A DNA stretch of 64,000 bases from positions 1 to 64,000 of the forward strand of contig JAVHLP010000011.1 of assembly GCA_031082145.1 (NCBI GenBank), in the 5' to 3' direction. The notes beneath the pieces are model-generated. The model was not told the origin of the DNA. It ran no database searches and saw only the letters and a program-made list of their open reading frames with translations. A program made the position numbers and the translations under genes. This DNA is from a bacterium. Its GTDB lineage: Bacteria > Bacillota > Sulfobacillia > UBA995. Below, in pieces: positions 39,014 through 44,233 of the stretch; within the stretch, counting starts at the first letter, position 1; the number at the start of each line of letters is the position of its first letter.

Positions 39014-39907
39014 TCACTGACCGGAATCGGCCGGCCCAGGGGCGAGCACCTTCAGCCGGCCGGGCAATAACTCGAAGCTCGCCGGAGTCTCCCCCACCAC
39101 GTCCCCGTCCAGGTGTACCAGCAAGGGAACATCGGCGGTGACCGCCACCCGGCGGGCGCGATAGGCGTGCACCAGCGGGTGCTCGGCCACCCTGCCCAGG
39201 ATCAGCAGCGAGAACAGGGCGGCGATCTCGGCCAGGTTGGCCTCTTCCACCAGGTACACGTCGAACCGGCCGTCGGCCGGGTCGGCCCGGCGGGCGAAGC
39301 GTACGCCCTTCCCGTAGTAACCCCCGTTCCCGATCAGGGCCAGCATCCCCTGCAAGGTCTGAGCCGTGTCATCCAGGGTCACCGTCAGCCGCGAGGGGTG
39401 GAAGCCCGGCAGCGACCGCAGGGCGGCCGCCGCGTAACCGGGCAGTCCGGGCGGGTACGGCCCCAGCCGGTACTCCTGGGTGATGCGGGCGTCCAGTCCC
39501 ACCCCGGCGACGTTCAGGAACAACCCCAGCGGCGAGCTCCCGACGTCGACCGGCCGGGGGACGCCGCGGGCCGCCACGCGGCAGGCCCTTTCCAGGTCCG
39601 CTGGCAAACCCAGTGACTGGGCGGTGCCGTTGCCGGTGCCGGCGGGGATGATGGCCAGCGAGGCCCCGGTTCCGGCGAGGCCCCGGGCCACCTCCCGCAC
39701 CGTCCCATCACCGCCCATCGCCACCACCGTCGCGTACCCGCTCGCCGCCTTGTCGCGAGCCAGTCCCGCCAAGCCCGGCAGACCGTCATGGCGGACCAGG
39801 TCGAAGCGGAACCCTTCCCTGACCAGGCGGCCCCGGGCCTCGGGCCATAGCCGGCCCGCCCGGCCGGAGCCGGATGACGGGTTCAGTACGACCAGGCCCT
39901 CCCTCAA
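39014..39907 (-). CDS. Diacylglycerol/lipid kinase family protein
   Basis: A 297-residue DAGK_cat kinase: VLNPSSGSGRAG near the start, VAMGGDGTVREVARGL (active-site GGDGT), IIPAGTGNG, and a beta-rich C-terminal lobe with FDVYLVEEAN and LVHLDGDVVGETP. It phosphorylates a lipid hydroxyl or, in related enzymes, a sphingoid-like base. The TTG start at 39907 has GAGGA upstream and overlaps the stop of the PcrB gene in TTGA (39904-39907); the longer frame runs antisense to nothing useful and is rejected. Coupling to PcrB suggests a common glycerolipid substrate. Confidence 0.87.
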   Translation of the reverse strand: MREGLVVLNPSSGSGRAGRLWPEARGRLVREGFRFDLVRHDGLPGLAGLARDKAASGYATVVAMGGDGTVREVARGLAGTGASLAIIPAGTGNGTAQSLGLPADLERACRVAARGVPRPVDVGSSPLGLFLNVAGVGLDARITQEYRLGPYPPGLPGYAAAALRSLPGFHPSRLTVTLDDTAQTLQGMLALIGNGGYYGKGVRFARRADPADGRFDVYLVEEANLAEIAALFSLLILGRVAEHPLVHAYRARRVAVTADVPLLVHLDGDVVGETPASFELLPGRLKVLAPGPADSGQ

Positions 39908-40632
39908 GGCGGTGTCCTCGCCGGGGTTGACCGGACGGCAGCCACCACCTGGGCCAGGAGGCGGGGATCGCCTTCGTAGACGAGGTTCCCAACCACGACG
40001 GTGTCGGCCAGGGCGGCCATCTCCCGCGCGCGTGCCGGGGAGTCGATGCCGCCACCGTAAAAGAGCCGGGCCCGCCCGAGGATCGCCCCCACCGCCCGGA
40101 CCACCCGGGGATCGCCATAGCAGCCACTGTACTCGAGATAGAGGACGGGCAGGCCTAGGAGTTCCTCGGCGCAACGCGCGTAAGCCACCACTTCCTCCGC
40201 CGACAGGCCGGCGGTGGCGGCGGTGAGCTGGGCCACCGCGGAGGCCGGGTTGAGGATCACGTACCCCTCGGCGACGACGAGGTCCCAGAGCTCCCGGGTC
40301 CACTCACCAACGGCTCTGACCGCCTGCTGGTGGGCTCCGACTATCCAGAAAGGATCGCCGGCGTTGAGAACCACCGGCACCAGGTAGAGGTCGGCCCCCG
40401 GAACCAGCGCGGAGAAGGAGGACACCTCGATGGCCACCGGCAGGCCCTGGCCCGCGACGCGCCGGAGCAGGGACTGGACCCGCGCCGAGGTGATGCCCTG
40501 GGTTCCCCCCAGCACCAGGGCGTCGGTCCCGCTGCCCAGCACCGCCTCCAACCGCCGGTCGTCCAGCAGCCGGTCGGGGTCCAGCTTGGTGAGGTGTCGC
40601 CAGTTGCCCAAGCGCTGCCGCCAGGTCTCCAC
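39904..40632 (-). CDS. pcrB: Heptaprenylglyceryl phosphate synthase (PcrB / GGGP synthase family)
   Basis: A 242-residue TIM barrel of the GGGP synthase family: HLTKLDPD near residue 13, ALVLGGTQGI, YLVPVVLNAGDP, ILNPASAVA, LYLEYSG and the phosphate-binding YGGGI. In Bacillus PcrB couples heptaprenyl diphosphate to glycerol-1-phosphate to make an archaeal-style ether lipid. The GTG start has GGGAGAAG before it, and a promoter (TTTACT-17-TATAAT) lies at 40697-40669. It heads a two-gene unit with the lipid kinase. Confidence 0.88.
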   Translation of the reverse strand: METWRQRLGNWRHLTKLDPDRLLDDRRLEAVLGSGTDALVLGGTQGITSARVQSLLRRVAGQGLPVAIEVSSFSALVPGADLYLVPVVLNAGDPFWIVGAHQQAVRAVGEWTRELWDLVVAEGYVILNPASAVAQLTAATAGLSAEEVVAYARCAEELLGLPVLYLEYSGCYGDPRVVRAVGAILGRARLFYGGGIDSPARAREMAALADTVVVGNLVYEGDPRLLAQVVAAVRSTPARTPP

Positions 40633-40697: not shown

Positions 40698-40742
40698 GGC
40701 GACGGGAGAAGCCGCAATGGTCCGACTTCCCGCGGGGGCCCG

Positions 40743-42425
40743 CTAGTCCTCTTCCCCGACCTCCATCTCCTGCTCAATGGCGTCCAGGAATCCCTGGTCG
40801 TCGGTCAGGCGACGGGCCTGGGCCAGGCAGCCGGCAATGGTCCGCTGGCGGTGACCATGGTCCACCCGGAAGCTGCGCACGGCCGCCAGGAAGTCCTCGG
40901 CCCCGATGACCTCCGCTCCGCGGTCGAAGCCGAGCCGCCGGGCCCGGGTGACCACTTCCTCGAGTTCGGCCCCGGAGAAGGCGCCGGTGGCCGGCACCAC
41001 GTCCCGGGCCAGGAAGGTCACCAGCGCGTCGCCTTCCATGGCCAGGGGCGGCCGGCGGTGGCGGGTTCCCGCCCCGAGGCCAAGGTGCACCTTCAGGATA
41101 TCCAGGCGGGCGGCCGGTCCCGGGTAGAGGAAGGGTATCTTGTAATCGAAGCGGCCGGTGCGGGTGAAGGCCTCGTCCAAGTGCTCGGGAACGTTGGTGG
41201 TGCCCACGATGATGGCCTCGCGGTCGGGCCGGCCCAGCCACTCCAGGAACTGGGAGAAGACCCGTCGGGTCTCTTCCCCGGCAGAGTCGGCGGCCACCCC
41301 CCGGCGGCCAAAGCGGTCGATCTCGTCCACAAAGACGATGGCGGGCGACATCTTCTCTGCCAGCCGAATGGCGCTCTTCATCTTCTGACCCGACTCGCCC
41401 AGCCACTTGGAGTAGATGTTCTCGGTGACCAGGTTGATGAAGGGGAGCCCGATCTCGCTGGCCAGGGCGTTGGCGAAGAGACTCTTGCCGGTGCCGGGAG
41501 GACCAAAGAACAGTATGCCCTTGGGGAGGGGAACCCCGAAACGCCCCGCCCGCTCGGGGTGACGCAGCACGTTCACAATGTACTTCCTGACGAAGTCCTT
41601 CAGGATCGCGTAGCCCCCGATGTCATCGAACCCGGCCCGGGGATCGGAGACCTCCAGCACCCCGGATTTCCGGACGAGCTCCGACTTGAGGGTCTTCAGC
41701 CGCATGGGGTCGAACCGCCGGGTCGTGAAGTAGGACTCCAGGAGGATGCTCTCCAGCTGGTGCAGGTTGAGCCCGGCGGTGGCCACCACCAGTTGAAACC
41801 GCAGTTCATCGTCTAGTGGAACCTCCAGTTCGCGGGCGGTGGACTCGATGATCGCCTCCCGCTCGGAGGCCAGGGAGGGATCAACCTCGATGATGACCGC
41901 CAGCTCGCGGGTGAACTCGTCGAGGATCCGTCCCGCGTCGGCGGTCAGTATGAACACCGTTGATCCCCTGGCAACCACCCCCTGGTCGATGGCCCAGGCC
42001 TTGATGGCGCTCTCGAGGCCCGACTCGCTCTCGCGATGCTCGGACACATTCTGGATGATGAAGATGGTGTTGCCCTTCCGGAGGTAAGGATCGACTTCCT
42101 TGAGGGCGGCCTTGAAGGCGTGCAGGGAGACGCCCTCTTCCCGCAGCCGCTGGCCCAGCGGCGAGGCGGGGGCGGTCTTGCGGTACGGCTCCGTCCGGGG
42201 TGGGCCGTCCCCCCGGATCAGCCGCTCGAGGCCGTTCCACTGGTCGTAGACGAAGACTTGCTCGTAGCGGGCGAACTCCGGCTGCCAACTCAGGTAGCTC
42301 TTGAGCTGGTGCAGCCGCCGGGGGTCGGTAGTCTCAAAGCAGACGACCGGTGAGTGGTTAGACCGCCGCTTGAGGAGCCCGCGTTCGATCCATCCGGTGT
42401 CGAGTTCCTTGAGGGAGGAGGCCAC
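40743..42425 (-). CDS. AAA+ ATPase, Ycf46-like
   Basis: A 560-residue AAA+ protein. The N-terminal 240 residues are a divergent domain of Ycf46 type (NTIFIIQNVSEH, then STVFILTADAGRILDEF and a proline-rich switch to EVDPSLASEREAII). The AAA module follows: DIGGYAILKDFV, Walker A GPPGTGKS (308-315), Walker B VFVDEID (D367, E368), and the arginine-finger GRFD. Ycf46 proteins of cyanobacteria and plastids have no agreed biochemical role. GTG 42425 is preferred because GAGGTGA lies five bases before it; GTG 42434 lies within that site. It is the last gene of a five-gene operon with DUF1257 and DUF2997 proteins. Confidence 0.85.
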   Translation of the reverse strand: MASSLKELDTGWIERGLLKRRSNHSPVVCFETTDPRRLHQLKSYLSWQPEFARYEQVFVYDQWNGLERLIRGDGPPRTEPYRKTAPASPLGQRLREEGVSLHAFKAALKEVDPYLRKGNTIFIIQNVSEHRESESGLESAIKAWAIDQGVVARGSTVFILTADAGRILDEFTRELAVIIEVDPSLASEREAIIESTARELEVPLDDELRFQLVVATAGLNLHQLESILLESYFTTRRFDPMRLKTLKSELVRKSGVLEVSDPRAGFDDIGGYAILKDFVRKYIVNVLRHPERAGRFGVPLPKGILFFGPPGTGKSLFANALASEIGLPFINLVTENIYSKWLGESGQKMKSAIRLAEKMSPAIVFVDEIDRFGRRGVAADSAGEETRRVFSQFLEWLGRPDREAIIVGTTNVPEHLDEAFTRTGRFDYKIPFLYPGPAARLDILKVHLGLGAGTRHRRPPLAMEGDALVTFLARDVVPATGAFSGAELEEVVTRARRLGFDRGAEVIGAEDFLAAVRSFRVDHGHRQRTIAGCLAQARRLTDDQGFLDAIEQEMEVGEED

Positions 42426-42435
42426 CGGGATCACC

Positions 42436-42609
42436 TCACCCGCAGGGAGATTCGAAGCGGCGGCCGGTCCTCACGCCGAGGTCTTCCAGGACCCGGACCA
42501 GCCGCGATGCCAGACCCGTGCCTTCCCGATCGTTGACTTCCAGCCGGCCTGCGAACACGCGGATCTCCACCTGCTCCCGGGGGACGGCCTTGGGGCGGAC
42601 GGACTTCAC
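42436..42609 (-). CDS. Small protein of unknown function, 57 residues
   Basis: Starts at GTG 42609 with AGGAGGTGGG upstream and overlaps the DUF2997 stop in GTGA (42606-42609). The product is basic, with a beta-type stretch VEIRVFAGRLEVN (residues 14-26) and a helix LASRLVRVLEDLGV (33-46). I recognise no domain. Its tight coupling to both neighbours and clear ribosome-binding site make it a real gene and probably part of the ATPase complex. Confidence 0.65.
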   Translation of the reverse strand: MKSVRPKAVPREQVEIRVFAGRLEVNDREGTGLASRLVRVLEDLGVRTGRRFESPCG

Positions 42610-42833
42610 CGGTGTCCCACCTCCTCTCCTGCCTCTTCCCCCGCCAGCCCAAGCTCGGCGGCAATGACTCCCGGTTCCTTGGGCCTGACGCTGGCGGTGG
42701 CCATCGCCAATCCCAGTCCAGCCAGCAATCGCCGTAGCTTCTCCTCCTCTTCGCGGCAGTCCTCGCCCGCAAACCCCGAGAAGTCAGCCTTGACCCGACC
42801 CCGGGGGTCGACTTCGAACTTGATCCGGCGCAC
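42606..42833 (-). CDS. DUF2997 domain protein
   Basis: A 75-residue protein whose first half fits DUF2997: RRIKFEVDPRGRVKADFSGF, then AGEDCREEEEKLRRLL. Free-standing DUF2997 proteins are usually found next to DUF1257 (Ycf35) genes, as here. The C-terminal 35 residues are longer than usual and Glu/Ala-rich. The GTG start follows GGGGGTGGGAGA. Its function is unknown; the small acidic-basic strand-helix design suggests an adaptor or substrate. Confidence 0.8.
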   Translation of the reverse strand: MRRIKFEVDPRGRVKADFSGFAGEDCREEEEKLRRLLAGLGLAMATASVRPKEPGVIAAELGLAGEEAGEEVGHR

Positions 42834-42847
42834 TCTCCCACCCCCCT

Positions 42848-43285
42848 CTACAGGGCTCCCCGCACTACCACCCGCTTCTCCGGCCCGCCCGCAATCCTCT
42901 CTTCCTCCATCTCCACCTCGTAGTTCAGGGTTCTGAGGGCCTCGGCAACCGCCAGGGCGGTGTAGTTCTGGGTGAGGGAGTCCCGGAGCCGGTTGGCGTG
43001 CCGCTCGTAGCCGCCGTAGGGGTCGTAGAGGAAGCGGACCTCACCGGTGGCGGGGGACACCTTCACCCCCAGGCCTCGGGGAAAGATGGGTGTGACCAGC
43101 GCGAAGTCGCAGGCCTGGTAGTTCCCGTAATAGTCGACAACGCCCTCCTTGAGCTCGCCCGCGAACTCCTCCGCCGTGACCTGAAGGGCCTGCTCGAGCA
43201 GCCGCCAGGTAGGGTGGGAGCGGGTCTCGGGGCCGGTGTAGGGCGCCACCCGGATCTGAGTCGAATACGCAGTGAGCAGGCTCAT
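42848..43285 (-). CDS. DUF1257 (Ycf35-like) protein
   Basis: A 145-residue protein with the family pattern: ILTAYST-like start, LLEQALQ, VVDYYGNYQACDFALVTP, LGVKVSPATGEVRFLYDPYGG and a C-terminal tail LNYEVEMEEER. Ycf35 is conserved in cyanobacteria, red-algal plastids and scattered bacteria without known function. ATG follows AAGGGGTGAGGGT. It lies between the membrane coiled-coil gene (19-bp gap) and the DUF2997 gene (14-bp gap). Confidence 0.84.
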   Translation of the reverse strand: MSLLTAYSTQIRVAPYTGPETRSHPTWRLLEQALQVTAEEFAGELKEGVVDYYGNYQACDFALVTPIFPRGLGVKVSPATGEVRFLYDPYGGYERHANRLRDSLTQNYTALAVAEALRTLNYEVEMEEERIAGGPEKRVVVRGAL

Positions 43286-43304
43286 ACCCTCACCCCTTCT
43301 CCCC

Positions 43305-44111
43305 TCAATCCAGGCTGATATCCTTGGCCAGGAAATCCCGGCGCCGGGCTTCCCACTCCCTGAGGCTGTCCTGGGTCTCCGCCAGTTCCCGCTCCAACTG
43401 CCGGCGTTCCTCTGACAGCTCCAGGATACGCTGGTCGAGGTGACGGATCTGACGGCCGGGGTCGTCTCCCGGGCGCGCCCGCTCGCTCAGTTCGAGCAGT
43501 GCGACCTGGACCCGGATCGCTTCCGAGCGTTCCCGGTCCGGGCCCGCCCCCTCAAGTTCCCGCTCCAGCCGCTGCCGGTGCCCGGCCAGAGCCGCCAGGT
43601 CCATGGCGGCCAGTTGCTCCCGCCACTCCTGAACCTTGAGGCTGCGGACCCGGGCCAGGCCCTCTTCTTGCAGCCAGCCATCGACCTGGGCATTCAGGCG
43701 CTTGGACTCGGGCAGGTGATCGCCGCCACTCGCCTCCAGCCCGCGCTGGCGCTGGACGAGGTCCTGCATGGCCTCCTTGATGCGGCCGATCCGGTTCCGG
43801 CAGGCCTGCTCCCGGCGGACCAGGGCCACGATCGCCTCGTCGTAGGTCTTCCGCCTGCTCTTGGCCAGGAACTCCACCAGGACCAGGGCCAGCAGCACAA
43901 ATAGGGGGATGCTCAGCCCGGCCGCCGCGAGCAGCCGCAGCACCCCCCGGGTTCCCGGGAACACCAGGACGGCGAGCAGCAGTCCGGCCGCGGCCGCGGC
44001 CAGCGCCGTCCCGACCAGGGCCCGTGAGCTGCGAGGTCCATACAGGTAACGGGCGGTCAGGCGGTGAATGCCGGCCAGCACCAGGATTACCGTGACCACC
44101 ACCAGCCCCAA
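43305..44111 (-). CDS. Membrane protein with long cytoplasmic coiled coil
   Basis: A 268-residue protein with three hydrophobic helices (about 2-16, 32-50 and 58-83) followed by about 180 charged, heptad-rich residues (for example LDQRILELSEERRQLEREL near 225-243), predicted as a coiled coil in the cytoplasm. No family is recognised. The TTG start has GGAGGTGA six bases upstream, and a perfect -10 (TATAAT, 44139-44134) precedes it. As first gene of the ATPase operon it could tether the AAA+ protein and its partners to the membrane. Confidence 0.75.
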   Translation of the reverse strand: MGLVVVTVILVLAGIHRLTARYLYGPRSSRALVGTALAAAAAGLLLAVLVFPGTRGVLRLLAAAGLSIPLFVLLALVLVEFLAKSRRKTYDEAIVALVRREQACRNRIGRIKEAMQDLVQRQRGLEASGGDHLPESKRLNAQVDGWLQEEGLARVRSLKVQEWREQLAAMDLAALAGHRQRLERELEGAGPDRERSEAIRVQVALLELSERARPGDDPGRQIRHLDQRILELSEERRQLERELAETQDSLREWEARRRDFLAKDISLD

Positions 44112-44133
44112 GCCCGGTCACCTCCCAGTCCCT

Positions 44134-44139
44134 ATTATA
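44134..44139 (-). promoter_or_regulatory. -10 element of the Ycf46/Ycf35 operon
   Basis: TATAAT on the minus strand, 22 bp upstream of the TTG start. TTGTCA occurs further upstream but at 22 bp spacing, which is too far for a normal -35, so a regulator may be needed. Confidence 0.5.
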
Positions 44140-44202: not shown

Positions 44203-44233
44203 GAAACGGGGGCCGGCGCCCCGCGCCGGCCCC
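44203..44233 (-). terminator. Terminator of the oligopeptide transporter operon
   Basis: On the minus strand GGGGCCGGCGC (44233-44223) pairs perfectly with GCGCCGGCCCC (44219-44209) across a three-base loop, followed by CGTTTCTT. It lies 23 bp after the oppF stop codon. Confidence 0.75.

Follow-up and report, generated by a model that had tools for sequence, protein, structure and literature searches.

Five contiguous genes on the minus strand of a 64,000-nucleotide stretch of DNA from a bacterium of the Bacillota (lineage Sulfobacillia, UBA995; positions 1 to 64,000 of contig JAVHLP010000011.1, GenBank assembly GCA_031082145.1), hereafter the window, constitute a class-specific variant of a ycf46-ycf35-DUF2997 module that is widespread and, so far, apparently undescribed. 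In the order of transcription, the open reading frames (ORFs), which occupy 44111-40743, encode a coiled-coil protein (CC), a divergent DUF1257 (Ycf35) protein (Y35), a DUF2997 protein (D2997), a protein of 57 residues (P57) and a Ycf46-like AAA+ ATPase (AAA). Cyanobacteria and algal plastids are the best-known sources of ycf46 and ycf35, two genes that plastid genomes have retained and for which no function has been agreed. An earlier note on this DNA had proposed that the five proteins act as one unit in a non-photosynthetic spore former. Comparative evidence makes the functional linkage of the five genes well supported, and the presence of Spo0A fits a spore former. We consider it probable that the operon encodes a dedicated AAA+ remodelling complex with small partners; for any particular client of such a complex our confidence is much lower.

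A full-length relative of AAA, with roughly 59-81% identity, is present in 29 of 61 class-level genomes. In each of the 28 class-level loci whose contig reaches far enough to be read, the window counted among them, CC, Y35, D2997 and P57 precede AAA in identical order and on the same strand. The flanking genes are not shared, the commonest flank being present in 8 of the 28 loci. The named relatives are mostly metagenome-assembled genomes of Candidatus Fermentithermobacillaceae, labelled Symbiobacterium or termed 'Bacillota bacterium'. In one class genome, P57 and AAA are separated by a transposon-like insert (L045:7060-8718) whose ORFs resemble resolvase and TnpB genes. Surveys of further genomes found AAA in 3/299 Bacillota, all from the window's class, and in 1/199 Planctomycetota; since these surveys scored four to seven candidates per genome (four in the Bacillota survey), the absences are soft.

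Outside the class, a scan with the ATPase led to a planctomycete genome and to one of Desulfobacca, where all five genes are present, their order and common strand unchanged, and P57 ends in SPCG. Y35 and D2997 form one fused protein in an Acetothermia genome, and a Heimdallarchaeote possesses Y35, D2997 and AAA. Two natural DUF1257-DUF2997 fusions were found (L102 and L116). A joint alignment of a natural fusion with the Y35 and D2997 proteins misplaced DUF2997 onto the wrong part of Y35. The L116 fusion (L116:7591-8256) lies on a mobile-element-like stretch together with PRTRC B-like, ThiF and ribonucleotide-reductase-like genes. A Ycf46-type ATPase, DUF1257 and DUF2997 also occur within a few kilobases of each other in Rhizobium, Pseudomonas and Aeromonas phages, in a Rhizobium plasmid-prophage and in plasmids of Thermovibrio and Geminocystis.

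Scanning viral contigs with Ycf46-type ATPases alone gave 80 loci, 57 of which contain DUF1257 and/or DUF2997 and 48 of which contain both; all matches to the two families (105/105) lie on the strand of the ATPase. The query ATPases had been selected for an adjoining DUF1257 gene and the first 22 loci are the closest relatives of the queries; both families are present in 22/22 of these, while among the 58 more distant loci at least one is present in 35 and both in 26. Hidden Markov models (HMMs) of DUF1257 and DUF2997 found no match near seven AAA genes that do not belong to the system. At the level of gene arrangement, the neighbourhoods demonstrate that the ATPase is genetically linked with DUF1257 and DUF2997 in bacteria, in an archaeon and in phages, a link which in the window's class extends to CC and P57. 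The earlier note would have been contradicted if these families failed to co-occur elsewhere; they do co-occur, in the class, in Desulfobacca and in phages, plasmids and viral contigs.

AAA (40743..42434, minus strand, 563 aa) has a Ycf46-like N-terminal region followed by one complete AAA+ domain, which matches PF00004 (E 1.3e-31) and has its closest PDB matches in Cdc48/p97. Its motifs are intact: Walker A (311-318), the pore loop (340-348), which retains the aromatic/hydrophobic-Gly type, Walker B (366-373), sensor 1 and the arginines of the second region of homology (Arg fingers). AAA is therefore predicted from its sequence to be a catalytically complete AAA+ ATPase of Ycf46-like architecture. 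Profile comparison of its N-terminal 250 residues with Ycf46 proteins, diverse relatives included, yielded a probability of 90.8 (E 1.2e-6, 195 columns); with rows from the class alone the probability was 5.7, which is not significant. In an unrooted tree of the AAA domain, the class-level ATPase forms a clade of its own (support 99/96) that is distinct from the Ycf46 clade (100/99), and AAA does not branch inside the latter. For this reason we call it Ycf46-like and not Ycf46.

Y35 (42848..43285, minus strand, 145 aa) gave no match in a direct Pfam search, falling short of the curated cut-off of PF06868, and only 1/28 of its class relatives matches this family (at 0.017). A profile of Y35 built from 46 relatives, compared by hhalign with seven DUF1257 proteins of phage, plasmid, cyanobacterial and L116 origin, reached a probability of 97.8 (E 8e-13, 107 columns), with unrelated control profiles at E >= 0.08. 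In addition, a phage-derived DUF1257 HMM singled out Y35 among the five window proteins (8.5e-9). Because of these two results and the failed Pfam cut-off, we regard Y35 as a divergent DUF1257 homologue, not as a member of the Pfam family. Most Y35/DUF1257 relatives share an MSH start. The AF2 model of Y35 is confident (predicted local distance difference test score (pLDDT) 89, predicted template modelling score (pTM) 0.81). A fold search with it found weak matches alone (E 0.037 for the best), in domains of RnlA and phosphopentomutase; the sole significant viral structural match is a protein of 147 residues (E 1e-4), which we infer from its equal length to be the Rhizobium phage DUF1257 protein. 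For Y35 and D2997, no solved structure similar by sequence was found.

The two smallest proteins each have a conserved cysteine. D2997 (42606..42833, minus strand, 75 aa) passes the curated cut-off of PF11211 (E 1.3e-5, 25.4 bits against 24.1), and 23/28 of its class relatives match this family at E <= 0.01. Its Cys26, in a GFxGxxC-type GxxC motif, is invariant in the 28 class loci; GxxC is found in 48/51 viral DUF2997 proteins. P57 (42436..42609, minus strand, 57 aa) has no Pfam match. Its make-up is DUF2997-like, as comparison with D2997 by hhalign gave a probability of 91 (E 1.1e-6), and it ends in Cys-Gly in all 43 relatives, an ending seen in 9/2392 viral reading frames of similar size. 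The AF2 model of P57 (pLDDT 82) shows a beta-beta-alpha arrangement with a low-confidence tail, and its fold search returned no matches. Three related viral contigs (L207, L211 and L212, the L207 copy being frameshifted) encode, immediately behind DUF2997, proteins of 49 aa that end in NPWCG. These proteins were considered as relatives of P57 and set aside, as profile comparison with P57 gave no significant match and a renewed scan returned the query alone.

CC (43305..44111, minus strand, 268 aa, TTG start) is a predicted membrane protein, as the earlier note had suggested: its hydrophobic segments lie within the first ~80 residues, as expected of a membrane anchor, and a coiled-coil follows. 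A homologue is present in 28/28 class loci, and alignment reveals the invariant residues W146, R154, R156 and W163. Taken together, the family labels given at the outset hold for D2997 by Pfam and for Y35 by profile comparison only; that of the ATPase applies to its N-terminus, but its AAA domain belongs to a separate clade.

The layout agrees with the description of five tightly spaced genes on one strand: the spacings between CC, Y35, D2997, P57 and AAA are, in order, 19, 14, -4 and 1 base pairs, and the GTGA overlap that had been used to place the 57-residue gene is the D2997/P57 junction. Read directly from the sequence, a TATAAT element lies at 44139-44134 (44134..44139, minus strand) and a ribosome-binding site, GGGAGGTGA, at 44126-44118 (minus strand) ahead of CC. 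The single -10 element claimed earlier is thus present, but it is weak, as a promoter scan found no matching -35 at a spacing of 16-18 nucleotides. A terminator-like hairpin closes the upstream oppF-like gene (44209..44233, minus strand), and a second, weak one of 5 pairs stands just 3' of AAA (40699..40715, minus strand). Owing to these hairpins on both sides and a separate promoter-like site of the downstream pcrB, the five genes look like a single transcript. The PcrB/GGGPS-family gene that directly follows the operon (39904-40632) scores above the cut-off of broad GGGPS subfamily models, and adjoins a YegS/DAGK-type lipid kinase gene (39964-39014).

Some relatives have additional neighbours. 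A radical-SAM (Fer4_12) protein stands beside the trio of ATPase, DUF1257 and DUF2997, or beside some of its members, in 6/80 viral contigs and in the planctomycete, whose radical-SAM protein bears a weak DUF2997-like match (E about 1e-3). Genes for E1 (ThiF) and JAB-like proteins occur in 4/80 viral contigs, in Desulfobacca and in the planctomycete. In Desulfobacca they form a JAB-like and ThiF fusion (L103:1077-2633) directly upstream of the five genes, with an ORF of 72 aa (2696-2911) between. The planctomycete island (contig G354:C7, L105/L131) comprises CC, Y35, radical-SAM, a HerA-like protein of 935 aa and NYN, as well as an ORF of the size of a ubiquitin-like protein, E2-like and JAB-E1 genes; it adjoins a fusion of Cas6, reverse transcriptase and Cas1 and CRISPR-like repeats. 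A DUF3150-type gene is near the Ycf46-type ATPase in 21/80 viral loci (L134-L213). The radical-SAM/Fe-S (iron-sulfur) and E1/JAB genes, both of them minority features, do not occur at loci of the window's class, and we treat the radical-SAM, E1/JAB and DUF3150 neighbours as hints, not as parts of the system. E1, JAB and E2 as core components in the window's class were rejected, there being none at the class loci and a lone ThiF-family gene elsewhere in the genome.

How might such a complex work? Since the aromatic/hydrophobic-Gly pore loop is kept, we propose that AAA may act as a hexamer that pulls its substrate through a central pore. Y35, D2997 and P57 would make up the regulatory or substrate-facing part, in which the conserved DUF2997 cysteine and the flexible -CG tail at the C-terminus of P57 might serve as reactive or docking points, and CC would anchor the assembly to the membrane. 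The least certain step is that the machine may, under stress, rebuild or activate a client that bears a thiol or a metal, as opposed to degrading protein. The physical complex, its substrate and purpose, and the roles of the partners as adaptors or regulators are inferred. In favour of a remodelling complex we count the gene order, constant in 28/28 class loci whose flanks are not shared, its recurrence in Desulfobacca, the trio in independent replicons, the natural fusions, the kept ATPase motifs, the conserved cysteines of D2997 and P57, the Fe-S neighbours in relatives (radical SAM; fed7 in cyanobacteria) and the link of Synechocystis ycf46 to stress and EcaB. Several points weigh against it. 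The phage and plasmid modules have other partners, and CC was not found among them; the class-level ATPase clade stands apart from Ycf46 proper, so that their functions may differ; and Fe-S genes are absent from the class loci, so that the thiol or metal theme is taken over from relatives. A bolder extension strikes us as quite doubtful: DUF2997 and P57 would be paired thiol proteins served by the AAA+ motor, P57 being a minimal Cys-Gly carrier or tag that is activated, loaded or threaded. The operon would then encode a machine of a kind not known before, for Fe-S maturation or for thiol- or ubiquitin-like modification, with the ancestral core ycf46-ycf35-DUF2997, parts of which algal plastids still keep.

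Other explanations were weighed against the remodelling complex. The ATPase and DUF proteins might be a maturation chaperone that loads or repairs a radical or Fe-S enzyme, in line with the Fer4_12 radical-SAM proteins found with the trio in six viral contigs and the planctomycete, with fed7 in cyanobacteria (PMC4284462) and with the conserved cysteine in DUF2997. Yet neither the window operon nor its class relatives contain a radical or Fe-S enzyme, and the radical-SAM protein of the planctomycete resembles DUF2997 only weakly; we hold this to be unlikely. The frequency of the trio in phages and plasmids and the planctomycete locus beside Cas6-RT-Cas1 would suit a domesticated phage or defence module, which is rather improbable given that the sole matches to defence families are generic AAA models (IetA, TRIP13) and a weak one to a coiled-coil, that the flanks have no mobile-element genes in common and that gene order is stable across the class.

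A ubiquitin-like tagging or sulfur-carrier system, with P57 (by its C-terminal Gly) and/or DUF2997 as modifier and the ATPase as a Cdc48-like processor, would account for the invariant -CG end of P57 and for the Cdc48/p97 matches of the ATPase domain. It also accords with the E1 with JAB-like N-terminus just upstream of the Desulfobacca genes, with the E1, E2-like and small ubiquitin-sized ORFs of the planctomycete and with ThiF and JAB-like genes beside the trio in four viral contigs. We nevertheless give it little credence: within reach of the class loci no E1, E2 or JAB gene lies near the operon, the single ThiF-family gene of the window genome is located elsewhere, the predicted P57 model is not a beta-grasp, and E1 is seen in just 4/80 viral contigs. 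That the operon is conserved without a physical complex, its proteins linked by co-regulation only, is very improbable in view of the natural fusions, the co-localisation in independent replicons and the overlapping reading frames.

In cyanobacteria, DUF2997 and ycf35 are neighbours of fed7, a ferredoxin gene (PMC4284462). In Synechocystis, ycf46 belongs to an operon that responds to stress, and the carbonic anhydrase activity of EcaB is lower when ycf46 is lost, according to Jiang et al. 2015 as cited in PMC7496141. Whether ycf35 is present tracks habitat in the plastids of red algae, and so, in like manner, does the presence of ycf46 (PMC5940233). A 2026 preprint reports DUF2997 from bacteria and archaea as well as from eukaryotes and some viruses (PMC13131479). 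The literature searched, mostly outside subscription journals, describes the ycf35-DUF2997 pairing and yielded no paper joining Ycf46, DUF1257 and DUF2997. New here are the linkage of the trio in viral contigs, plasmids, phages and a Heimdallarchaeote, the two DUF1257-DUF2997 fusions, the DUF2997 likeness and invariant Cys-Gly end of P57, and the minority radical-SAM or E1/JAB partners. If ycf46, ycf35 and DUF2997 make up one AAA+ machine, a phage or a non-photosynthetic bacterium would allow the question to be tested, and photosynthesis would not seem to be their core function.

Compared with known systems, AAA resembles Ycf46 of cyanobacteria, plastids and phages in its N-terminal region with one AAA domain and its linkage to DUF1257/DUF2997, but differs by its separate, well-supported clade and by its other genomic partners, CC and P57. 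D2997 is a DUF2997 protein by cut-off and GxxC motif, although the Pfam model does not extend to its C-terminal tail, which lies beyond the 35 matched profile positions; Y35 is too diverged from DUF1257/Ycf35 (PF06868) for a direct match. The PRTRC and E1-JAB cassettes accompany the trio in a small number of relatives but are absent from the window operon and the class loci. The cyanobacterial duf2997-ycf35-fed7 cluster (PMC4284462) likewise places DUF2997 next to Ycf35, but with a ferredoxin and with no ATPase, CC or P57 listed.

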